Source of the DNA: Sedimenticola sp.
GTDB taxonomy: Bacteria; Pseudomonadota; Gammaproteobacteria; Chromatiales; Chromatiaceae
Reading direction: 5' to 3'
Assembly: GCA_027041035.1 (NCBI GenBank)
Contig: JALULB010000029.1
Location: 2,358 to 16,093 of the forward strand
DNA: 13,736 nucleotides
Part shown: positions 3,787-13,719 of the stretch, one piece after another
Position numbering within the stretch: position 1 is the first letter of the stretch
How the letters are laid out: each line of letters begins with the position of its first letter
The notes under the pieces: generated by a model
What the model saw: only the letters and a program-made list of their open reading frames with translations
Told to the model about the DNA's origin: nothing
Databases searched by the model: none
Position numbers and translations under genes: made by a program

Positions 3787-3863
3787 GGGCCCTTAGCTCA
3801 GTTGGTTAGAGCAGTGGACTCATAATCCATTGGTCGAAGGTTCGAGTCCTTCAGGGCCCACCA
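3787..3863 (+). tRNA. tRNA with CAU anticodon, probably tRNA-Ile2 (lysidine type); elongator tRNA-Met is the alternative
   Basis: A complete 77-base cloverleaf with an encoded CCA end. The acceptor stem is GGGCCCT/AGGGCCC, the D stem GCTC/GAGC, the anticodon stem GTGGA/TCCAT with loop CTCATAA, and the T stem GAAGG/CCTTC with loop TTCGAGT. The anticodon CAT can belong to initiator Met, elongator Met or Ile2. The first acceptor pair is a normal G-C pair, against initiator. C4-G69 and C5-G68 are the pairs known to favour lysidine synthase TilS in E. coli, and the sequence resembles E. coli ileX, so Ile2 is preferred. Automatic tools usually label such genes Met. Confidence 0.95.
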
Positions 3864-4153
3864 CATACCGTAAACCTTCCGCGAAGGTAGTGTACTGAGC
3901 CAGAAGGGCTGTACTGAACGCCCCATGGCAACACTGGTCAAGACACCTTTATGTGGAAATACACCTAAGTTGTTGATTTTCAAGGGCCTGGGGTGGTGCG
4001 GCCTGTGCATCCCTGTCCCGCTGTGCCAGCGCCAGGAGAAGGGTTGATGCCTCAATCAGCTCCACGGGATTCCGTTCGCTTCCCCAGTGTGGCGTAAGAT
4101 CCGCCAGGCGCTCGCACGAGACAATTCCGAACCGCCTTTCGGGGTCATCCGGT
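3864..4153. other. Gene-free stretch downstream of the tRNA
   Basis: I see no gene here that I can support. A short perfect hairpin, CCTTC-cgc-GAAGG, lies at 3875-3887 just after the tRNA but has no T-run, so it is not a standard terminator. On the minus strand a frame that is already open upstream of 4149 runs to a stop at 3949 and contains a regular-looking stretch (VELIEASTLLLALAQRDRD). It has no convincing start or ribosome binding site and I do not recognise it. It may be another decayed fragment. Confidence 0.5.
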
Positions 4154-4535
4154 TTATGTGTGCTGATGGTGGTTACGATCAGATCGCTGGATCAGGCTTT
4201 CGAGAGGGATATGCAGCCCCTCCCAGAGATTACGGATCATATCGATGGAGAGGGGGCGTTTGCGATTCAGCACCTCGGATACACGCCCGCTTTTGCCGAT
4301 GTATGGTTCCAACGCCTTACGATCAAGTCCACCCTGCTCCATGCGAAACAAGATCGCTTCGATAGGATCAGGTGGGGTAATAGGATGGTGCTTATCCTCA
4401 TATGCCTCGACCAGCGTAATTAGCACATCGAGCTTGTCGCCTTCAGGGGTATCAGCTTCAGCCCCCCCAAAGTTGCTCGATCTCGGCCAGAGCCGCATCG
4501 TAATCCTGCACTGTCTTGATAGGGCGAATATCCAT
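4154..4535 (-). pseudogene. HigA-family antitoxin / HTH regulator, broken by a +1 frameshift in a G7 run
   Basis: The natural start is the ATG at 4535, preceded by GAGGA with a 7-base gap. The frame reads MDIRPIKTVQDYDAALAEIE and on to LWGG, then hits TGA at 4460-4458, after 25 codons. Removing one G from the seven-G run (4468-4462 on this strand) restores AEADTPEGDKLDVLITLVEA and a full 126-residue HigA-like antitoxin. Its helix-turn-helix lies at about residues 65-115, with GKSGRVSEVLNRKRPLSID as the core. HigA-type antitoxins bind and neutralise an RNase toxin and repress their own operon. A toxin 3' fragment lies just upstream in the expected higB-higA order. The region is more AT-rich than its neighbours, suggesting acquired DNA. 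A sequencing error in the homopolymer would also explain the break. An internal ATG at 4498 opens the downstream frame but would lose the native N-terminus. Confidence 0.82.
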
Positions 4536-4551
4536 CGTTCTATCCTCGCTA

Positions 4552-4614
4552 TTACTTCAAATTGAGCTTGTCGTATTGTTTATGTTTATGAGTGCCTGTA
4601 AAACCCCGAACCAT
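4552..4614 (-). pseudogene. 3' remnant of a HigB-type toxin gene
   Basis: The last 20 codons before the stop at 4552 read MVRGFTGTHKHKQYDKLNLK. This resembles the C-terminus of HigB-family mRNA interferases, where a strand ends in a pattern like IRFxGTHxxYDKI. The stop is 16 bases before the HigA start, the spacing and order expected for higB-higA. Nothing upstream in any frame looks like the rest of HigB (about 75 further residues), so the toxin has lost its catalytic body. The match is short, so this call is moderate. Confidence 0.5.
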
Positions 4615-4655
4615 GGTTGGTGCGCTGAAGAGTTCCCGCGCGTACAGGGGTATCT

Positions 4656-4781
4656 TCAGGATGTGGTCGGTGCGCGCGGTGGGCGGCTGTGTGGATCGCC
4701 GGCGATGATCTCGCAGACCAGGTGATCGGGTGACGCAAGCAGGTCTTCGTAGCCGGCGGGTTTCAATAGACCGTCCGACAT
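4656..4781 (-). pseudogene. N-terminal stub of a Uma2-family (DUF820) nuclease-fold protein
   Basis: A 41-residue frame from an ATG at 4781 contains GYEDLLASPDHLVCEIIAGD followed by a Pro/Arg-rich tail. This matches the usual Uma2 N-terminus, in which YEDLLALP is followed by LVGEIIDGEL and a PRP-type segment. Uma2 proteins are about 180-200 residues long and belong to the PD-(D/E)xK nuclease superfamily. The catalytic core is absent: the frame stops at 4656 and the DNA beyond leads into the HigB remnant. No clear ribosome binding site is visible. It is most likely a deletion relic and not a functional small protein. Confidence 0.55.
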
Positions 4782-4857
4782 GGCGAAAGTGTAGCGGGTG
4801 CGCGCCTTTCCTCCGTCGGGTTGGCGCAAGCTGGTCATCCAAGCGGCCGCATCCGCG

Positions 4858-4866
4858 TGATATGAT
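4858..4866 (+). promoter_or_regulatory. Extended -10 promoter element upstream of the TraB-family gene
   Basis: TG-a-TATGAT forms an extended -10 element, with TATGAT matching the consensus at five of six positions. There is no convincing -35 at 16-18 bases. Extended -10 promoters often lack one. The expected start is near 4873, giving a leader of about 40 bases that contains the AGGAG ribosome binding site at 4901-4905. Confidence 0.45.
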
Positions 4867-4911
4867 AGCCGCCCGCCATAGGCATCCCGCCACGCCCGCA
4901 AGGAGCACGCA

Positions 4912-6108: not shown

Positions 6109-6144
6109 GACGCTTCAGACGGTAGTGATGCTCGATCTCCAGCC

Positions 6145-6173
6145 TTGACAGTCGAATAATGTGCATATACACT
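6145..6173 (+). promoter_or_regulatory. Sigma70-type promoter of the MarR-family gene
   Basis: A perfect -35 TTGACA (6145-6150) is followed after 17 bases by TACACT (6168-6173), four of six matches to the -10 consensus. Transcription would begin around 6179-6181, on top of the ATG at 6180, which predicts a leaderless or nearly leaderless mRNA. The MarR operator palindrome overlaps the spacer and -10, as expected for autorepression. Confidence 0.6.
6161..6172. promoter_or_regulatory. Candidate MarR operator 1 (marR promoter)
   Basis: GTGCATATACAC is a 12-base inverted repeat with one mismatched pair, overlapping the -10 of the marR promoter. It shares the GTGnAnnTnCAC framework, and the following TT, with the palindrome at 6686-6697. 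Binding is inferred from the symmetry, position and repetition. Confidence 0.6.
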
Positions 6174-6179
6174 TTAATC

Positions 6180-6656
6180 ATGCCTGACACCGATACCCTA
6201 TGTGATCTTCAGCAATGCCGGGAAATCGGCTTGCGCTGCGCGGTGTTGAATCTGCGCAAGGCGTCGCGGGTGATGACGCGGCTGTATGAAGACATCATGA
6301 AGCCCAGCGGTTTGTTGCCGACGCAGTTCAGCCTGTTGGTGGCGGTGCGGGCGCGTGGGCCAGTGGGTATCACCCGGCTGGCGGAGGCGTTGTCGATGGA
6401 TCGCACCACGCTGACGCGCAATCTGCGTCCGTTGGCGCGCGAGGGCTTGTTGACGATAGAACGGGCCTCGGGTGATCGGCGCGCGCGGCAGGTGAGTCTG
6501 AGCGACGCGGGCCTGGCGCGCCTGGAAGTCGCGTTACCGTTGTGGCGGGAGGCGCAAAGGCGTACCGCCGAGTTGCTCGGCGAGGCGCGCCTAGATCGCC
6601 TGTTGGGTGACCTGCGCGCGGTGGTGGAGCGTGGCGGCGAGCGGATTGCCGAATGA
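6180..6656 (+). CDS. MarR-family transcriptional regulator
   Basis: From the chosen ATG this is a 158-residue winged-helix regulator, typical for MarR. LYEDIMKPSGLLPTQFSLL (36-54) is the dimer/helix region. The recognition helix lies near 74-84 (MDRTTLTRNLRPL) and the wing contains the conserved SGDRRARQVSL at 97-107. An ATG 21 bases upstream (6159) would add seven residues, but it lies inside the promoter, so 6180 is preferred. There is no Shine-Dalgarno sequence, consistent with leaderless translation. Cysteines at 8, 13 and 20 could act as redox sensors, but this is only a suggestion. Matching palindromes at its own promoter and before the downstream exporter gene suggest that it represses both units. 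Ligand unknown. Confidence 0.92.
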   Translation: MPDTDTLCDLQQCREIGLRCAVLNLRKASRVMTRLYEDIMKPSGLLPTQFSLLVAVRARGPVGITRLAEALSMDRTTLTRNLRPLAREGLLTIERASGDRRARQVSLSDAGLARLEVALPLWREAQRRTAELLGEARLDRLLGDLRAVVERGGERIAE

Positions 6657-6675
6657 CGGCCTGTGCTTTTTTTTC

Positions 6676-6697
6676 GTGCAATTAGGTGTAATTACAC
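6676..6697. promoter_or_regulatory. Candidate MarR operator 2 with tandem half-site, upstream of the RND exporter gene
   Basis: GTGTAATTACAC at 6686-6697 is a perfect 12-base palindrome. Immediately before it lies GTGCAATTAG (6676-6685), a direct copy of the left part (GTGTAATTAC) shifted by exactly 10 bases, one helical turn. The AT-rich stretch right after it (TTATAT, 6698-6703) could serve as a -10 element, so bound repressor would block it. The site is 38 bases before the exporter ATG. Confidence 0.65.
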
Positions 6698-6735
6698 TTA
6701 TATGCCGCCCGGCGGATGAGAGAGGAGATTTCTGA

Positions 6736-9135
6736 ATGACCGACGAAAGCCTGAAAATGACACGCGCCTGGCGGGTGTTCTGGTGGATTACCGCTTTTCC
6801 GAAGCGTGTCATTCTGCTGGGTCTGGTGCTGATGCTCGGCAGCGGGGTGTTTATCCCGAGCTTGGTGAAGGACACCCGCTCGGATGCCTTTCTGCCGGAC
6901 GACGAGCCGGCGCTGGTGTATCGCGACAAGGTCAAGCAGATCTTCGGTCTTTCCGATCCGATGGTGGTGGCGGTGCTCAACGACGGGCCGCGCGGTGTTT
7001 TCAATCCGCATACCCTCGCCCTGGTCGACTGGCTGACCCGGGAGATCGCCAAGCTGGAGAATGTCGACCCGGATCGCATCACCAGCCTGGCCACCGAGAA
7101 CGATATCCGGGGTGACGCGGAGGGTATGCGGGTAGAGCCGTTCTGGGAGGATGCGCCGCCAAGCACCCAGCAACAGGCCGACGCGGTGCGCGCGGCGGTG
7201 ATGGACTTTCCGCTTTACCTCGGCAGCCTGGTCGCGGCGAACGGTGGTGGCACGCTGATCGTCGCCGAGGTCGCGGATCAGGCCAGGGCGCAACAGTTGT
7301 ATCAGGATCTACTGGCGTTGGCCGGGCGCGCGCCGGTCGGTCCGGGGGAGGTGATCCATGTCGCCGGCGAGGGCGCGGTCAGCGGCTACATGGGCAGTTA
7401 CATCGATGCCGACGCCCAGCGCCTGAACCCGCTGGCGGCGATCATCATCACCACGGTGTTGTTCATTGCTTTTCGCACGCCGCGCGGCGCCTTGTTGCCG
7501 AATCTCGTGGTGCTGGCCACGGTGGCGGCGGCGCTGGGCCTGATGGCAGCCTTCGGGGTGCGCTTCTTCGTCATCACCAATGGATTGTTGCCGGTGCTGA
7601 TCGGCATCGCGGTGGCGGATTCGATTCATATCTTCAGCCAATACTACGAGGAGCAGGCGCGCCATCCCGGCGACGACGCACGCGTGATCGTGGTGCGCGC
7701 CATGACGCGCCTGTGGCGGCCGATCAGCATGACGACGCTGACCACGCTGGCCGGATTCTTCGGCTTGTACCTGGCTTCGGTGATGCCGCCGATGAAGTAT
7801 TTCGGCCTGTTCGCGATGGTCGGCGTAAGCGCGGCCTGGGTGTATTCCGTCAGCGTGCTGCCCGCGTGGCTGAGCCTGCTGAAGCTCAGGCCCAGCCCGG
7901 CCTACCGCCTGGCGCCCAAGTCGGATACCCAGCGCGTCGATGCCTTCGGTCGCGCGATGACGGCTTTCGGCCGGGGCGTGGTCAGGTGGCCCGGCCTGGT
8001 ACTGGGGCTGGCCGCCGTGGTCGGTGTGGTCGGTATCCATGGCGCCGCCCACCTGGAACTCAACGAGATGCGCATCCGTGTGTTTCAGCGGGATGAGCCG
8101 ATCGTGCGTGCGGATCACGCCATCAACGCGCGATTCGACGGTGTCTACTATCTGGACATTCTGGTGGAAACGCCGGAGCCGGAGGACATCTTCGCGCCGG
8201 CCAACCTGCGGCGTATCGAAGCCTTGCAAGCCTATCTGGAAACCCTGCCGCATGTCGGCGGCAGCACCTCGGTGGTGGATTATCTGAAGCAGATGAACCG
8301 CTCGTTGAATGCGGGGCGCGCCGATGCCCATGCACTCCCGGAAGACAAGGATCTGATCGCGCAGTACTTCCTGCTGTATTCGGCGAGCGGCGATCCGGAC
8401 GACTTTCAGGAGGAGGTGGACTACGACTACCGGCTGGCGAATGTCCGCGTCAGCATGGACTCGGGCAAGTACACCGACGAGAAGCTTGTCGTCGAATCCG
8501 CGCAAGATTACATCGACCGGCATTTCAATGCGCCCGGGATCGGCGCGACGCTCTCCGGTCGGGTCAACGTCGACTACCACTGGATCAAGCGTCTGGGCGA
8601 GACCAACTGGGGCAGCGTGGGCCTCGCGTTGCTGATGGTCTGGCTGATGGCCTCGCTGGCCTTCCGTTCCCTGCTGGCCGGCGTCGTCACCGTGCTGCCG
8701 GTCACCCTGACGGTGCTGCTGGTGTACGCGGTGATGGCCTTCAACGGTATCTGGCTGTCGATCGGCACGTCGATGTTCGCCGCGATTGCGATCGGCCTGG
8801 GCGTGGATTTCGCGGTGCATACCGTCGAACGCCTGGAGGTGCTGCTGCGCGACGAACGGCTGTCGCTGGATGAATCCATCGTCGCGCTGTTCCCATCCAC
8901 CGGCCGCGCCTTGCTGTTCAATTTTCTCGCCCTGGCGCTGGGTTTCGGCGTGCTCGCGACCAGCAAGGTCGTGGTGCTTCAGGAGTTCGGCGCGATCGTC
9001 GCGCTGGCCGTCACAGTGAGTTTTCTGTCCAGCCTGACCCTGCTGCCGGCGATCGCCAAGGTGTTTCAGCCGCGTTTTCTGGGTTGTGACAAATCCGCGC
9101 CGCCGGCGCGAGCGAATCCCGAAGCGATGCCGTAG
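6736..9135 (+). CDS. RND superfamily (MMPL-type) exporter, 12 transmembrane segments
   Basis: This 799-residue inner-membrane transporter has the duplicated RND plan. TM1 is at about 24-44, a large periplasmic loop follows to about 229, and TM2-6 span 230-382. TM7 is near 415-435, a second loop runs to about 625, and TM8-12 span 626-785. Conserved acidic residues sit in GIAVADSIHIFSQYYEE (about 290-306) and GLGVDFAVHTVERLE (about 687-701), the likely proton-relay helices. The sequence DAFLPDDEP after TM1 is usual for the COG1033 'predicted exporter' group, which includes lipid and hopanoid transporters. It is shorter than the roughly 1000-1050 residues of tripartite drug pumps such as AcrB, and no membrane-fusion protein gene is nearby. 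A good ribosome binding site (GAGAGGAG) lies about 7 bases before the ATG. The downstream LolA-like and barrel genes suggest a lipid or other hydrophobic cargo. Confidence 0.92.
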   Translation: MTDESLKMTRAWRVFWWITAFPKRVILLGLVLMLGSGVFIPSLVKDTRSDAFLPDDEPALVYRDKVKQIFGLSDPMVVAVLNDGPRGVFNPHTLALVDWLTREIAKLENVDPDRITSLATENDIRGDAEGMRVEPFWEDAPPSTQQQADAVRAAVMDFPLYLGSLVAANGGGTLIVAEVADQARAQQLYQDLLALAGRAPVGPGEVIHVAGEGAVSGYMGSYIDADAQRLNPLAAIIITTVLFIAFRTPRGALLPNLVVLATVAAALGLMAAFGVRFFVITNGLLPVLIGIAVADSIHIFSQYYEEQARHPGDDARVIVVRAMTRLWRPISMTTLTTLAGFFGLYLASVMPPMKYFGLFAMVGVSAAWVYSVSVLPAWLSLLKLRPSPAYRLAPKSDTQRVDAFGRAMTAFGRGVVRWPGLVLGLAAVVGVVGIHGAAHLELNEMRIRVFQRDEPIVRADHAINARFDGVYYLDILVETPEPEDIFAPANLRRIEALQAYLETLPHVGGSTSVVDYLKQMNRSLNAGRADAHALPEDKDLIAQYFLLYSASGDPDDFQEEVDYDYRLANVRVSMDSGKYTDEKLVVESAQDYIDRHFNAPGIGATLSGRVNVDYHWIKRLGETNWGSVGLALLMVWLMASLAFRSLLAGVVTVLPVTLTVLLVYAVMAFNGIWLSIGTSMFAAIAIGLGVDFAVHTVERLEVLLRDERLSLDESIVALFPSTGRALLFNFLALALGFGVLATSKVVVLQEFGAIVALAVTVSFLSSLTLLPAIAKVFQPRFLGCDKSAPPARANPEAMP

Positions 9136-9180
9136 ACGCGATCGCGATAGACATCCGAACAAACCACCTGGAGCAACCTC

Positions 9181-10026
9181 ATGAGCAACACGACAAGTCA
9201 TCACGCCGACCGGCCCATTGCACTGATTACCGGGGGATCCCGGGGTATCGGCCTCGCCCTGGCGAGGCAGTTTCTCCAGCACGATCATGACCTGATCCTG
9301 GTCGCGCGTGACGAAACGACGCTCGCGCGGGCGGCGGAGGATCTGGAGCGGGAGTATCCCGGCCGAGCGGTGACGCCGATCAGCCTGGATCTGAGCGCCG
9401 CCGACGCGCCCGCCGAGCTGTTTCGTCGATTGCAGGCGAAGGGTATTCAAATCGATGTGTTGGTGAACAACGCCGGCGTCGGCGACTACGGTCCGTTTGC
9501 CGAATCCGATCCGGATCGCCTGTCCGCGATGATGCGGCTCAACATGCAGGCACCGACCGAGCTGATCCGGCGGTTTCTGCCCGCCATGATCGCGCGTGGA
9601 AGCGGCCGGATACTCAACGTGGCCTCGCTGACGGCCTTCTTTAGTGGCGGCACCAACTGGAGCAGCTATGTCGCATCCAAGCATTACATGCTGGCCTTCA
9701 GTCGCGGGCTGCGCGGCGAGCTCGCCGGCTCCGGGGTCAGCGTCACCGCGCTGTGTCCCGGTCCGGTGGCGACGGATTTCGTTCAGCGCTCCGCCGTTGG
9801 CGGTACCCGCGTCTACCGCTGGCTATCGAAGCTCGATCCCAATGCCGTCGCCCGGCGCGCCTGCCGTGCGGCCATGGCGGGTCGGGCGGTCGTCGTGTCG
9901 GGCGGGGTCAACAAGTTGCTCGCCTTCCTCGGTGAGCTGCCGCCCCGGGGCATCGCGCGCACGGTGTTCGCCTTTCTGCTGCGTGGCAACGCCTCGGGCG
10001 AAACCCTGCCGGAGCGGGTCGCGTGA
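9181..10026 (+). CDS. Short-chain dehydrogenase/reductase (classical SDR)
   Basis: This 281-residue NAD(P)-dependent oxidoreductase has the cofactor motif TGGSRGIG at 17-24 and NNAG at 96-99. The catalytic set is complete: N121, S149, Y163 and K167 (YVASK). An arginine after the second strand (VARD, R43) favours NADPH over NADH; this is an inference. The C-terminal 40 residues are hydrophobic or basic and may touch the membrane. The ATG is 45 bases after the exporter stop, with GGAG about 7 bases upstream. The stop overlaps the next gene by four bases (GTGA), so the two are translationally coupled. Substrate unknown; relatives act on ketones, hydroxy lipids and sterols. Confidence 0.93.
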   Translation: MSNTTSHHADRPIALITGGSRGIGLALARQFLQHDHDLILVARDETTLARAAEDLEREYPGRAVTPISLDLSAADAPAELFRRLQAKGIQIDVLVNNAGVGDYGPFAESDPDRLSAMMRLNMQAPTELIRRFLPAMIARGSGRILNVASLTAFFSGGTNWSSYVASKHYMLAFSRGLRGELAGSGVSVTALCPGPVATDFVQRSAVGGTRVYRWLSKLDPNAVARRACRAAMAGRAVVVSGGVNKLLAFLGELPPRGIARTVFAFLLRGNASGETLPERVA

Positions 10027-11003
10027 GCCGTGCGCCCAAGCTCGCCTTCGCGGTCGCCGTGGTGGCGATGGCCGGTCTGTCCGCCTGCGCCGCGCCACGG
10101 AACGCGGCGTCGCCAAGCCCGCGTTTCGCGGTCGATAAATCGCTGTTTCCCTACGCATCACACAGCCTGCGTCTGGAGAATGGCGCGGATATTCACTATG
10201 TGGACGAAGGCGAGGGGCCGGTGCTGCTGCTGTTGCACGGCAACCCGACCTGGTCGTTCCTGTACCGGCATCTGATCGCCGCGTTGCGGGACGACTACCG
10301 CGTGATCGCGCCGGACTATCCGGGGTTTGGCCTGTCCAGCGCGCCGCCGGACTACACCTTCACCGCGTCCGAGCAGGCGGCGTCGATGAGCGAGTTCGTG
10401 GAACGCCTGGATCTACGCGGCGTAACGCTGATGGTGCAGGACTGGGGTGGGCCGATCGGCTTCGCCATCGCCGAAGCGCATCCGCGGCGCTTCGATGCGT
10501 TTATCATCGGTAACACCTGGGCATGGCCGCTGGAACGCGGCGGACACAAGGTTTTCAGCACGCTGATGGGCGGTTGGCCCGGCCAGTTCGCCGCCTGGTG
10601 CTGCAACGGTGTCGTGCGCTTCTTCCTGTCGCAAGGGATGCGGCGGGAGCTGAGCGAGGCCGAACGGGCCATGTACTTCGCGCCGTTCGAGGCACGCGAC
10701 TCGCGAACGCCGACCCACGTCTTTCCCGCCCAGCTATGGGACGCGGATGCTTTTCTGCGAAAAGTAAGAGCCGGTTTACCCGGTCTCTCCGGGCGACCCG
10801 CGTTGATCGTCTGGGGACAGGCGGATTTCGCCTTCCAGAAGCCAGAACGAGAGCGGTTCGAGCAACTGTTCCCGAATCACCAGACCCTGTTGCTGGAGAA
10901 CGCCGGACATTTCATCCAGGAGGACGCGCCGGACGAGATCATCGCCGCGATCCACGCCTGGACCAAAAACACCCAACTATCCAAAGGAGCACATCATGAG
11001 TAA
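10023..11003 (+). CDS. Haloalkane-dehalogenase-like alpha/beta hydrolase with a lipoprotein signal
   Basis: This 326-residue protein starts at a GTG that overlaps the SDR stop. The first 22 residues look like a lipoprotein signal: basic MSRAPK, a hydrophobic stretch, then lipobox LSAC with C22. The residue after the cysteine is Ala, which by the E. coli Lol rule favours the outer membrane. The mature part has the alpha/beta hydrolase fold with the haloalkane dehalogenase layout: HGNPTWSFLYR (72-82), nucleophile D140 in VQDWGGPIG, acid D268 in WGQADFAF and base H296 in AGHFIQE. N74 and W141 match the halide-stabilising pair of that family. Asp as nucleophile rules out a normal serine esterase. 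The D-H-D plus N-W pattern resembles HLD subfamily III, which also contains OleB beta-lactone decarboxylases. Epoxide hydrolase is less likely. Real substrate unknown. Confidence 0.88.
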   Translation: MSRAPKLAFAVAVVAMAGLSACAAPRNAASPSPRFAVDKSLFPYASHSLRLENGADIHYVDEGEGPVLLLLHGNPTWSFLYRHLIAALRDDYRVIAPDYPGFGLSSAPPDYTFTASEQAASMSEFVERLDLRGVTLMVQDWGGPIGFAIAEAHPRRFDAFIIGNTWAWPLERGGHKVFSTLMGGWPGQFAAWCCNGVVRFFLSQGMRRELSEAERAMYFAPFEARDSRTPTHVFPAQLWDADAFLRKVRAGLPGLSGRPALIVWGQADFAFQKPERERFEQLFPNHQTLLLENAGHFIQEDAPDEIIAAIHAWTKNTQLSKGAHHE

Positions 11004-11502
11004 ACCTGAATGCCTGAGTCCCTTTTCCTCGCCAGGAACCGCTGACGAAGACCACGCCGGCGTGCATGTCCCGCCACCCGTGCTGCATATCGCCGCCGTT
11101 CTCTCCGGTGTCGGGCTGGCCACGGTTTTTCCGTTGAGGTTGCCCGCTCCCACGTGGCTGGCGGTAGCCGGCTTGCTGCTGATGACGGGCGCATTGCTGA
11201 TCGCCGGCTGGGCGTTTCGCGAGTTCGGCGACAAAAGCAACCCGGTGCCGCCCAATCAGCCCATCGGCGCGTTGATGACGGGCGGCCCGTTCCGCTTCAC
11301 GCGTAACCCGCTGTATCTGGCGCTGGCGTTGTTGCATGCCGGCATCGGCCTGCTCAGTGGCAATGCCTGGGTGTTGCTTGCGCTGATTCCGTCCTTGCTG
11401 ATCGTTCGCTTCTACGTGATCGCCCGGGAGGAAGCCTACCTGATCCGGCGTTTCGGCAAGGCTTATCGCGACTATATGGCCAGCGTGCGCCGCTGGTTCT
11501 AA
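10996..11502 (+). CDS. ICMT/PEMT-like membrane methyltransferase
   Basis: This 168-residue integral membrane protein has about four hydrophobic segments (about 29-46, 53-72, 104-121, 124-142). The C-terminal half carries the motifs of the isoprenylcysteine carboxyl methyltransferase / phospholipid methyltransferase group: GGPFRFTRNPLYL at 96-108 and REEAYLIRRFGKAYRDY at 144-160. These residues form the S-adenosylmethionine site. Bacterial members methylate small lipophilic compounds or lipids; prenylated proteins are not expected here. It overlaps the hydrolase gene by 8 bases, and AAAGGAG lies about 7 bases before its ATG. A membrane-embedded methyltransferase fits a pathway handling a hydrophobic molecule. 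Confidence 0.88.
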   Translation: MSKPECLSPFSSPGTADEDHAGVHVPPPVLHIAAVLSGVGLATVFPLRLPAPTWLAVAGLLLMTGALLIAGWAFREFGDKSNPVPPNQPIGALMTGGPFRFTRNPLYLALALLHAGIGLLSGNAWVLLALIPSLLIVRFYVIAREEAYLIRRFGKAYRDYMASVRRWF

Positions 11503-11599
11503 CCCAAAATATCATGAAGCTGCACGAAGATCGCGCGGCATATCGATTTTTCCGGGTCAGGCCGTTGGTTCCAATCCGACAGACTCCCAGGAGGCAAAC

Positions 11600-12400
11600 A
11601 TGAACTATCGAAGTGGATGGCTGCTTGCCGGCATGCTGCTGGCGCCCGCACTGGCGATCGCCGCCGAATGGCCGAACGGCGACGAGATCGCGCGGCGCAT
11701 CAACGCGCGTGACGAGGGCGTCGCAGTGACGCGAAACCTGGACATGCGCATGACCGACCGCCACGGTAAGACGCGCACGCGGGAGACGCGTGCATTTCGC
11801 AAATATTATGGTGACGAGAAACGCACGCTGATCATCTATCTCAAACCCAGGAACGTGAAGGGCACCGCCTTCCTGACCTGGGATTATCCCGACGCGGACA
11901 AGGACGACGACCAGTGGCTGTACCTGCCGGCGATGCGCAAGGTCCGGCGCATCTCCGCTTCCGATAGAGGCGACTATTTTCTCGGCACCGATCTGAGCTA
12001 CGAGGAGATCAAGCTCGAATCCCGGGTCGCGATCGATGACTACCGGCGCAAGACCATCGGCGAGGACGAGGTGGACGGCCATCACTGCTATGTCGTCGAG
12101 TCCATCCCGGTGGATGCGAAGATCGCCAGGGAACTGGGTTACGCCAAGGTGGAGCAATGCGTGGACAGCGAGATCTGGATGGTGCGCCGCGCGAGATTCT
12201 GGGATACCCACGGCAAGCCGCTGAAAACCGCCTATTTCCGCGATATCCGGCGGGTGCAGGGCATCTGGACCCAGCACCGTATCGAGGTGGAGAACCACAA
12301 GAGCGGGCACAAGACGCTGTTCCTATTCAGCGACGTGGACTATGCCGCCGGCGTGCCGGACAATCGTTTCAGCCGTAACGCACTGAAGCGCGGGTTGTGA
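11600..12400 (+). CDS. LolA-like outer-membrane lipoprotein-sorting family protein
   Basis: This 266-residue exported protein has a Sec signal peptide (MNYRSGWLLAGMLLAPALAIAA, split as a basic start then a hydrophobic core) cleaved at about residue 22. The body matches the LolA-like family often annotated 'outer membrane lipoprotein-sorting protein': KGTAFLTW near 87-94, QWLYLPAMRKVRRIS near 105-119 and YFLGTDLSYEE near 126-136. The fold is an open beta-barrel that can hold acyl chains. Members are commonly encoded beside RND exporters and outer-membrane barrels, as here. C163 and C187 could form a disulfide. AGGAGG lies about 7 bases before the ATG. A 97-base gap, without a promoter I can support, separates it from the methyltransferase gene. 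It is not LolA itself, which is shorter and housekeeping. Confidence 0.88.
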   Translation: MNYRSGWLLAGMLLAPALAIAAEWPNGDEIARRINARDEGVAVTRNLDMRMTDRHGKTRTRETRAFRKYYGDEKRTLIIYLKPRNVKGTAFLTWDYPDADKDDDQWLYLPAMRKVRRISASDRGDYFLGTDLSYEEIKLESRVAIDDYRRKTIGEDEVDGHHCYVVESIPVDAKIARELGYAKVEQCVDSEIWMVRRARFWDTHGKPLKTAYFRDIRRVQGIWTQHRIEVENHKSGHKTLFLFSDVDYAAGVPDNRFSRNALKRGL

Positions 12401-13719
12401 TGCGAGTGCCTCGATTGGCGCTGGCCGGATTGCTGCCGGCGGTTGCGTTGTCGCATGCCGCCGGAGACGAATTCTTCGTCGCCCTGCGCGGTCAGTGGGC
12501 CGTCGCTATCGACGGCGGCGAAACCCAATCGCTGGAGATGGACCTGGAGCCGGAATGGGTGCGCCGCTTCGACAACGGCTGGCGTCTCACCGTCAGTGGT
12601 CGCCTGCGTGTTCAAAATCAAGCTGGCCTACGTCCCGGGGATATGCAGACCGCCGGTTACAGCCCGCTGACGCGCCCGTGGCGAATCAGCGATACGGCCG
12701 AGTTCACGCCGCGCGAGTTCTATCTGCAAGGCGAGCGGGGCGGCACCTACCTGACCCTGGGCAAGCAGCAGATCGTCTGGGGCAAGGCCGATGGCCTGAA
12801 GGTGCTGGACCGTGTCAATCCGCAATCGTTTCGCGAATTCATCCTGGAAGACTTCGAGGACTCGCGGATTCCGCTTTGGGCGGTGAACGTCGAACGTCCG
12901 CTGGGCGACTGGGACGCGCAACTGGTGTGGCTGCCTGATACCAGCGTGCATGCCCTGCCCGGGCGTGGCGCACGCTACGCTTTCAGCGCGCCGATGCTCG
13001 TGCCAAGCGTGCCGCCCGGCATGCGGGTCGATCCGCGCGAGGCCAGGCGACCGGGCCGGGTGATCGCCGATTCCGATATCGGCCTGCGCCTGTCCCGCTT
13101 CTGGAACGGCTGGGACATCAGCCTGAACTACCTCTATCAGTACGACGACTTCCCGGTGCTCTACCAACAGCCGGGCGTGTCGGAAACCGGCCCGCGAGTG
13201 ACCATAACACCGCGCTACGAGCGTACGCATGTCCTGGGCGGCAGCTTCAGCAACGCCTTTGGCGACTGGGTGCTACGTGGCGAAGCCGCCTGGTTCAGCG
13301 ACCGCTACTTCCTTGCGGATCTCGCGCGACAAACGAACGGCATCGCCCAGGCCGGCGAGCTGTCCAGCGTGCTGGGTCTCGACTGGAGCGGAATCCGCGA
13401 CAGCTTCGTCAGCGTGCAGCTTTTTCAGAGCCGGGTACTGGGCGGCGCGGAAGGCATGCTCCGCGACCGAATCGAAACCACCCTGACCCTGCTGTTGCGG
13501 CGCGACTTCAACAACGACACCCTGCACGCACAAACCCTGTGGCTTGCCGGAACCAACCGGGGCGACGGACTGCTGCGCTTCAAACTCAGTTACGACTGGC
13601 GGGACGAGCTGCGCGTGTGGCTCGGCGCGGACGTATTCTATGGCGACAGCGAGGGGCTGTACGGGCAGTTCGACAACAATGATAGGGTGTTGGTTGGGGT
13701 TGAGGTTGGGGTTAATTGA
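12400..13719 (+). CDS. DUF1302-like outer-membrane beta-barrel protein
   Basis: From the ATG overlapping the previous stop by one base (TGATG), this is a 439-residue exported protein. A GTG one codon earlier is possible. The N-terminus MRVPRLALAGLLPAVALSHA is a signal peptide. The mature chain is full of alternating hydrophobic strands and aromatic girdle residues. The stretch from about 119 (TYLTLGKQQIVWGKADGL) to KVLDRVNPQSFREF is the clearest DUF1302 hallmark. Members are predicted outer-membrane channels paired with a LolA-fold or DUF1329 protein and an RND exporter. It is shorter than many DUF1302 proteins, and its C-terminus (VGVEVGVN) lacks the terminal aromatic residue preferred by the BAM complex. 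The last codons are unusually rich in GTT and GGG. The gene ends 17 bases before the window edge, so it is complete. Confidence 0.82.
   Translation: MRVPRLALAGLLPAVALSHAAGDEFFVALRGQWAVAIDGGETQSLEMDLEPEWVRRFDNGWRLTVSGRLRVQNQAGLRPGDMQTAGYSPLTRPWRISDTAEFTPREFYLQGERGGTYLTLGKQQIVWGKADGLKVLDRVNPQSFREFILEDFEDSRIPLWAVNVERPLGDWDAQLVWLPDTSVHALPGRGARYAFSAPMLVPSVPPGMRVDPREARRPGRVIADSDIGLRLSRFWNGWDISLNYLYQYDDFPVLYQQPGVSETGPRVTITPRYERTHVLGGSFSNAFGDWVLRGEAAWFSDRYFLADLARQTNGIAQAGELSSVLGLDWSGIRDSFVSVQLFQSRVLGGAEGMLRDRIETTLTLLLRRDFNNDTLHAQTLWLAGTNRGDGLLRFKLSYDWRDELRVWLGADVFYGDSEGLYGQFDNNDRVLVGVEVGVN
13685..13713 (+). repeat. G-rich direct repeat at the 3' end of the barrel gene
   Basis: GGTTGGGGTT occurs twice, at 13692-13701 and 13704-13713, offset by 12 bases, with another GGG just upstream at 13685-13687. 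It encodes the terminal VGVEVGVN. The run of G-tracts could form a two-tier G-quadruplex in the coding strand and mRNA. Codon choice here (four GTT in a row) differs from the GTG/GTC-rich rest of the gene. Confidence 0.6.

Follow-up and report, generated by a model that had tools for sequence, protein, structure and literature searches.

A candidate modular envelope cassette in Sedimenticola, with transport and enzyme genes under shared predicted operators

We analysed a stretch of 13,736 nucleotides from a Sedimenticola sp. genome (the window; positions 2358-16093 of the 16,093-base contig G000:C29), in which a run of seven genes combines a putative envelope transporter with three enzymes. 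The genome (G000) is 63% complete, and we take its family to be Sedimenticolaceae, presumably of sulfur-oxidising habit. All seven genes were confirmed on the plus strand within 6145-13719, each with Pfam support above cutoff. They encode a MosR-like MarR repressor (6180..6656, +; 158 aa; Pfam MarR), an HAE3-type MMPL/RND pump (6736..9135, +; 799 aa; Pfam MMPL), a classical short-chain dehydrogenase/reductase (SDR; 9181..10026, +; 281 aa; Pfam adh_short), an HLD-III-type alpha/beta hydrolase that is a predicted lipoprotein (10023..11003, +; Pfam Abhydrolase_1), a PEMT/ICMT-type membrane methyltransferase (10996..11502, +; 168 aa; Pfam PEMT), a LolA_like periplasmic carrier (11600..12400, +; 266 aa; PF17131), and a DUF1302 outer-membrane barrel (12397..13719, +; 440 aa, or 439 from ATG 12400; PF06980). 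The contig ends 17 bases past the barrel gene. A first-pass annotation had described seven plus-strand genes running together with overlaps of 4, 8, and 1 bases. The reading frames and Pfam matches bear out the genes and their overlaps: 4 bases between SDR and hydrolase, 8 between hydrolase and methyltransferase, and 4 or 1 between LolA and barrel, depending on whether the barrel starts at GTG 12397 or ATG 12400. The phrase "run together" is partly generous, since gaps of 79 (marR-pump), 45 (pump-SDR), and 97 bases (methyltransferase-LolA) are also present.

To place this arrangement among its relatives, we compared 17 distinct loci (the window, L031-L042, and L067-L070), leaving out L043-L050, which hold distant LolA forms or fragments, and L092, L093, and L096, which lie on the same contigs as L034, L036, and L033. 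Allowing enzymes to intervene and counting fusions, the order pump-LolA-barrel is kept in 15 of the 17 (the barrel of L039 being a cut fragment, E 1.9e-10). In L036, which starts inside the pump, LolA is followed by an alcohol dehydrogenase, and L070 stops at the pump. The three transport proteins are hence a conserved unit, as had been claimed. At least one enzyme lies between pump and LolA in 7/17 loci (window, L031, L033, L034, L035, L067, and L068). An SDR occupies that place in five (window, L031, L033, L034, and L035), a hydrolase adjoins the pump in five (window, L031, L067, L068, and L070), and the methyltransferase occurs in four (window, L031, L067, and L068). The full six-gene set is found only in the window and L031 (2/17). 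The check on gene neighbourhood in relatives therefore divides: the core neighbours are kept, and the six genes, which the first-pass annotation had read as one system, are rarely together, with the enzymes optional between pump and LolA. Nine of the loci have a MarR gene and four a divergent TetR gene (L031, L032, L035, and L068); neither was seen in L036, L037, L042, and L067. Glutathione transferase genes adjoin the cassette at L032 and L035. Two further loci show peculiarities of their own. At L070:2509-2637, the tail of a second marR (residues 120-162, 63%) sits downstream of the hydrolase and ahead of the pump, a remnant that is likely an insertion scar; the hydrolase there comes after an NmrA-type gene, with a DoxX gene upstream. 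At L069:4791-6791, a 666-aa metallo-beta-lactamase-fold protein is encoded after the barrel.

The repressor gene and its operator are the second conserved feature. A consensus scan places a marR promoter at 6145..6173 (+), with TTGACA at 6145-6150, a 17-base spacer, and TACACT at 6168-6173; TTGACA stands at the same distance in L033, L034, L041, and L140. Overlapping the -10 element is operator 1, GTGCATATACAC (6161..6172), a strict match to the pattern GTGYATATRCAC, for which 0.06 sites are expected at up to one mismatch. Operator 2, GTGTAATTACAC (6686..6697), is a perfect palindrome upstream of the pump gene that departs from the strict pattern at its two central bases. An alternative marR start at 6159 was set aside: it falls within the promoter and operator of marR itself, and homologues in an alignment of ten MarRs favour ATG 6180, giving 158 aa. 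The palindrome recurs at two places, overlapping the marR -10 and upstream of the first structural gene, in the window, L033, L034, and L069; ATG-type variants occur in L039-L041 (in L040 solely upstream of the pump), and no palindrome was seen in the stretches of L038 that were read. Across 11 genomes, the strict GTGYATATRCAC pattern has 22 sites, compared to one for the reversed control, and 15 of these fall at this system's marR loci (G000 1, G563 2, G516 4, G167 3, G484 2, G009 2, and G278 1), with none in G001 and G032. A MarR with an operator conserved across loci thus supports the predicted MarR control. The best solved relative of the window MarR is MosR (4fx0, E 1.7e-18). A cysteine that is invariant in 10/10 MarRs aligns with the first Cys of the MosR Cys-x-Cys pair at the start of helix 1 and may act in thiol sensing. 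The window protein has a Val at the +2 position (CAVL), and the full pair is present in the MarRs of L038, L069, and L070. Its likeness to MosR of Mycobacterium tuberculosis (4fx0/4fx4; PMC5823404) is hence one of fold and first cysteine; unlike MosR as described in that source, it lacks a second Cys two residues on and has other target genes.

The pump matches Pfam MMPL at 116.6 bits (cutoff 20.5). Its best NCBIfam match, TIGR00921 (HAE3), scores 224.4 bits, under the curated cutoff of 351.9, so we call it HAE3-like and not a confirmed HAE3 member. Like HAE3 RND transporters, it has acidic residues for a proton path: D295 is conserved in 16 of 17 homologues (Glu in one) and D691 in 17 of 17, which we take to be the acidic proton-path positions of TM4 and TM10. 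RND pumps with conserved aspartates are proton antiporters that export. The RND/MMPL fold is common to the window pump and the lipid exporters HpnN, BstA, and MmpL3, and the pump falls below the cutoff of the HpnN hopanoid transporter model TIGR03480 (86.7 bits, cutoff 751.85), the BstA sterol transporter model NF045600 (34.3 bits, cutoff 1400), and the MmpL3 model (22.8 bits, cutoff 1400). For the other two proteins, the gathering scores are exceeded: LolA_like PF17131 matches the carrier at 197.6 bits (cutoff 30), with 9tp6, 4z48, 3bk5, and 3buu as solved relatives, and DUF1302 PF06980 matches the barrel at 50.8 bits (cutoff 23.2). A structure model of the barrel (pLDDT 85.6, pTM 0.83) resembles OprD/Occ, AlgE, and porins, and the FadL fold is not among the matches listed.

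Pump and LolA are encoded in one frame in 4/17 loci (L038-L041), and a database search with such a fusion gave 1,023 proteins at E 1e-50 or better. Among the best 120 of these 1,023 matches (P0121-P0240), 119 have a hydrophobic segment followed by small-x-Ala before LolA; shuffled tails gave a mean of 80 and a maximum of 95. This segment may be an internal signal peptide, with LolA possibly cut free by signal peptidase. An internal signal peptide fits the topology, because an RND pump has its C-terminus in the cytosol and LolA has to be periplasmic. A structure model of the natural fusion L041, used to look for LolA docking on the pump, reached a pTM of 0.67 with a disordered linker (782-830), and we therefore claim no pump-LolA interface.

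Each of the three enzymes is predicted to belong to a different compartment. No signal peptide was seen in the SDR, which is thus predicted to be cytosolic; its best NCBIfam match is mycolate reductase, at 157.7 bits below a cutoff of 380. The hydrolase has the catalytic set of HLD-III enzymes (Asp, Trp, Asn, second Asp, and His), a conserved pentad that we take to define that subfamily: D140, W141, N74, and D268 are present in 121/121 aligned rows and H296 in 120/121. Its nearest solved structures are 8ooh and 8ckp, and it scores 241 bits against the haloalkane dehalogenase model PRK03204, below the cutoff of 466. A lipobox (LSAC, with Ala next) marks the window protein as a putative lipoprotein; since a simple pattern finds a lipobox in just 29 of 120 relatives, we limit this term to the window copy and some relatives. 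Hydrolase copies with a readable N-terminus carry a lipobox, a signal, or helix anchors and, on that basis, face the periplasm. One relative (P0019) begins not with a usual signal but with residues like those that open the pump protein, which could reflect recombination between pump start and hydrolase. The methyltransferase matches PEMT at 53 bits (cutoff 25) and the solved ICMT 4a2n at E 0.00039. The window hydrolase has in common with the HLD-III enzymes DhmeA, DmbC, DrbA, and OleB (PMC10503415) the Asp nucleophile, the adjacent Trp, the Asn of HGNPTW, and the triad Asp and His; unlike those enzymes as presented in that source, it is exported as a lipoprotein, is encoded in a transport operon, and has no OleA or OleC adjoining. 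Ole-type hydrocarbon synthesis by the cassette was considered and is not supported: none of the seven proteins matches anything resembling OleA or OleC, and the SDR belongs to the adh_short type, ole genes in the remaining genome not having been searched. The first-pass annotation had counted a halogenated compound among the possible cargoes. HLD-III is reported, in the available text of PMC10503415, as a subfamily with low dehalogenase activity, so together with the score below the PRK03204 cutoff a halogenated cargo is not indicated.

We noted that hydrolase genes also occur apart from the transporter. Eight family genomes have the hydrolase, three of them already among the 17 loci. In the other five (L140-L144), tblastn at E 0.001 found no pump, LolA, or barrel in the stretches read (5 kb for L144, 14-18 kb for the rest), and none of these genomes is among the 20 LolA matches of the family (the genome set being presumed identical). 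Their gene content varies: marR-SDR-hydrolase-G8 with two strict operators in L140 (G8 is a hydrophobic protein described below), TetR with SDR-hydrolase in L141, TetR with hydrolase in L142 and L144, and TetR with hydrolase-G8 in L143. Two further loci were found via the operator, namely L171 (marR, a small membrane gene, SDR, and G8) and L108 (marR and G8 alone). L108 and L140 come from two tubeworm-symbiont genomes and share the same locus and neighbours, with only marR-G8 in L108; the genome of L108 also has the transport locus L034, set apart from it. GTGYATATRCAC thus marks marR loci in both settings, transport cassettes and enzyme-only operons.

The TetR loci repeat this picture with a second operator. 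TATAGACA plus the following operator half is present in 8/8 TetR loci, four with and four without the transporter, and in all eight TATAGACA is followed by the near-palindrome AACYRGTTGGTCTG, from which L035 and L144 deviate at one to three positions. Five loci (L031, L032, L068, L141, and L143) have a clear second copy; it is degenerate in L142 and L144, and partly inside the cut stretch in L035. Searching 7 genomes with the TetR pattern gave four perfect sites, all at these loci. At one mismatch there were 12 rows, six at the loci and six elsewhere, compared to seven for the reversed control; matches outside the loci are therefore no better than background, and we relied solely on the alignment and the four perfect sites. 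Among NCBIfam models, AcuR matches the TetR best, with a score below cutoff. Because operators are shared by transport and enzyme-only loci, MarR and TetR would each cover both modules, and the enzyme loci under the same regulators support the earlier placement of SDR and hydrolase in one regulated set. Judged by gene content and operators across loci, the transport and enzyme genes are separable modules with shared switches, a feature that is new here.

Shared switches also invite the explanation that transporter and enzymes are bystanders of one regulon, answering the same stress by acting on different molecules. The occurrence of the two modules apart under the same operators and the many transport loci that have no enzymes would both follow from it. 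Against this stand the enzymes between pump and LolA in 7/17 loci, the overlaps of 4 and 8 bases in the window, and the periplasmic side on which the readable hydrolase copies are placed, and we consider such a bystander arrangement unlikely.

G8 is a hydrophobic protein of 233-248 aa, predicted to be a polytopic membrane protein in the relatives, with no Pfam or NCBIfam match at cutoff. Its gene follows the barrel in 4/17 loci (L032, L033, L067, and L031, the last a cut fragment with E 2.9e-5), is present in the enzyme-only loci L108, L140, L143, and L171, and was not found in the remaining transport loci searched. An open reading frame of L142 (7498-8235) was rejected as a G8 homologue at 19-21% identity. 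With moderate confidence, we predict a G8 gene beyond the end of the window's contig; it is not visible in the window because the contig ends after the barrel.

The system is patchily distributed. The pump is found in 12/190 relatives at E 1e-60 (four at 63% identity or more), LolA in 20/194 family genomes at E 1e-40 (five at 67% or more) and in 6/210 order genomes at E 1e-60, and the hydrolase in 2/369 class genomes at E 1e-70 and 8/194 family genomes at E 1e-80, with weak hydrolase matches being common (45/55 at E 0.001). In the same-genus genome G002, the ybeY-phoH-miaB-tRNA-traB stretch matches at 87-90% up to 6109, and there is no cassette in the 2.6 kb from there to the contig end. In G001, traB alone matches (83%), ending at 6111, and the next 5.8 kb hold no cassette. 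A close pump or LolA was found nowhere else in either genome. The cassette block, missing from this position in G002, is accessory. We rejected traB as a member of the cassette, since it is present in 22/32 relatives (E 1e-40) and stands without an adjoining cassette in the stretches read of G002 and G001. Directly after tRNA-Met (3787-3863), the window has about 1 kb of low-GC DNA (3864-4889) with an unassigned minus-strand reading frame at 4154-4498; this stretch is absent from G002, in which about 70 bases separate the tRNA from traB. The window's own genome also has a second, distant pair of LolA-like protein (35%) and pump (24%) on G000:C382 (L091/L094).

Taken together, pump, carrier, and barrel likely form a trans-envelope conduit for a hydrophobic molecule, with outward movement likelier than inward and with the enzymes plausibly acting on the same molecule. 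We favour, tentatively and at somewhat under an even chance, an inducible modular envelope pathway, by which a reactive lipophile would be converted and expelled, over a line that builds lipids constitutively. Inducible disposal is preferred because of the repressors, the optional enzymes, the glutathione transferase neighbours at L032 and L035, the patchy presence, and the lack of a synthase in the cassette. The proton-driven pump would lift the molecule from the inner membrane, the LolA-like carrier would ferry it over the periplasm, and the barrel, with its OprD/AlgE-like fold, would receive it at the outer membrane. The cytosolic SDR would reduce a carbonyl, and the membrane-attached, exported hydrolase would attack an electrophilic carbon (ester, beta-lactone, or halide) via its Asp nucleophile; the inner-membrane methyltransferase would be an addition in the window and the polytopic G8 one in relatives. 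MarR would repress marR and the structural genes via the 12-bp palindrome over the -10 and be released once the inducer reaches its cysteine or pocket. A more specific version, namely an electrophile- or redox-responsive pathway for one lipophilic metabolite, with one enzyme per compartment, outward passage through pump, LolA, and barrel, two exchangeable modules, and two interchangeable repressor-operator pairs, is possible but rather doubtful. Of the first-pass annotation, the core conduit, the MarR operator, and the co-regulation of SDR and hydrolase are thus retained, and the fixed six-gene set and the halogenated cargo are not supported.

The cassette might instead build and export an outer-membrane lipid (fatty-acyl or terpenoid) in the manner of MmpL3 or HpnN. 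Such a role would suit the mycolate reductase match of the SDR, below cutoff as it is, the presence of one predicted enzyme each for cytosol, inner membrane, and periplasm, and, at L067, a gene for a KAS I-type fatty-acid synthase some 125 bases upstream of the pump; HLD-III also includes OleB, which acts in hydrocarbon synthesis (PMC10503415). No chain-building synthase is among the seven cassette proteins, the enzymes are optional and also found without the transporter, and a conditional function is suggested by the autoregulated repressors and the patchy distribution. We regard lipid export as improbable.

Several observations weigh against inducible disposal and should be set beside it. 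First, many transport loci have no enzymes, and none of the seven enzyme-only loci (L140-L144, L171, and L108) has the methyltransferase. Second, L142 and L144 are not independent, because they come from one genus and their hydrolases are 92% identical. Third, 7 of the 22 strict operator sites lie elsewhere (G167:C19, G009:C5, G127:C91, G002:C284, and three at G278:C17 near a different MarR, 41%); those of G167:C19, G009:C5, G002:C284, and G278:C17 were read for cargo genes, and none of this system's genes was found there. Finally, the KAS I-type gene of L067 fits lipid building, and the alkane induction of a related system, described below, also fits uptake.

How hydrophobic molecules cross the Gram-negative periplasm is partly understood, and pumps with LolA-like partners are numerous and nearly untested. 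Here, defined operators would tie transport and enzymes into one regulon, so that a simple reporter could serve to find the inducer and, by way of it, the cargo. The cassette also gives an HLD-III-type enzyme, whose subfamily has no clear purpose, an extracytoplasmic place next to a transporter. In the open-access literature, to which this statement is confined, we found nothing on this gene set or these operators.

Comparison with published systems bears on the direction of transport. The reverse direction would have barrel and LolA import a hydrophobic growth substrate, hydrolase and SDR start its breakdown, and the pump run reversed or clear the membrane. DUF1302 barrels do resemble OprD-type uptake channels in fold, and the named fusion holders listed include Oleiphilus messinensis and Maricurvus nonylphenolicus, whose names or habits presumably point to hydrocarbons or phenols. 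The conserved pump aspartates speak against uptake, since RND antiporters export. In Thalassolituus oleivorans, TOL_3187 (an MMPL protein with a LolA domain) is up 42-fold on n-C28 and the porin TOL_3188 is detected solely on n-C28 (PMC6304351), as uptake would have it; TOL_3187 is likened to the fusions by description. Its authors propose that the pump moves the porin itself (PMC6304351), and the authors of the AmeABCD work read their system as an exporter (PMC6394551). We judge uptake distinctly improbable and keep to outward disposal as the preferred reading.

AmeABCD and TOL_3187/3188 are the nearest published systems. AupA/AupB were rejected as relatives: they are described as a FadL-like protein and an inner-membrane protein, with no RND mentioned in the available text. 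AmeABCD of Castellaniella defragrans serves monoterpene efflux and lowers monoterpene toxicity and Nile Red load (PMC6394551). As in the window, an HAE3 RND pump, a LolA-superfamily periplasmic protein, and a DUF1302 protein are encoded together. AmeB is a DUF1329 protein of 451 aa and AmeA has 605 aa (PMC6394551), a comparison made by description. AmeC (COG4447; PMC6394551) has no counterpart among the seven cassette proteins at E 0.001, and hence we do not class the window cassette as an AmeABCD member. Unlike in the window, no SDR, hydrolase, or methyltransferase is described between the AmeABCD genes in the available text (PMC6394551). TOL_3187/3188 (PMC6304351), again likened by description, differ in another way: pump and LolA are fused there, whereas the window encodes them separately and adds the enzymes.

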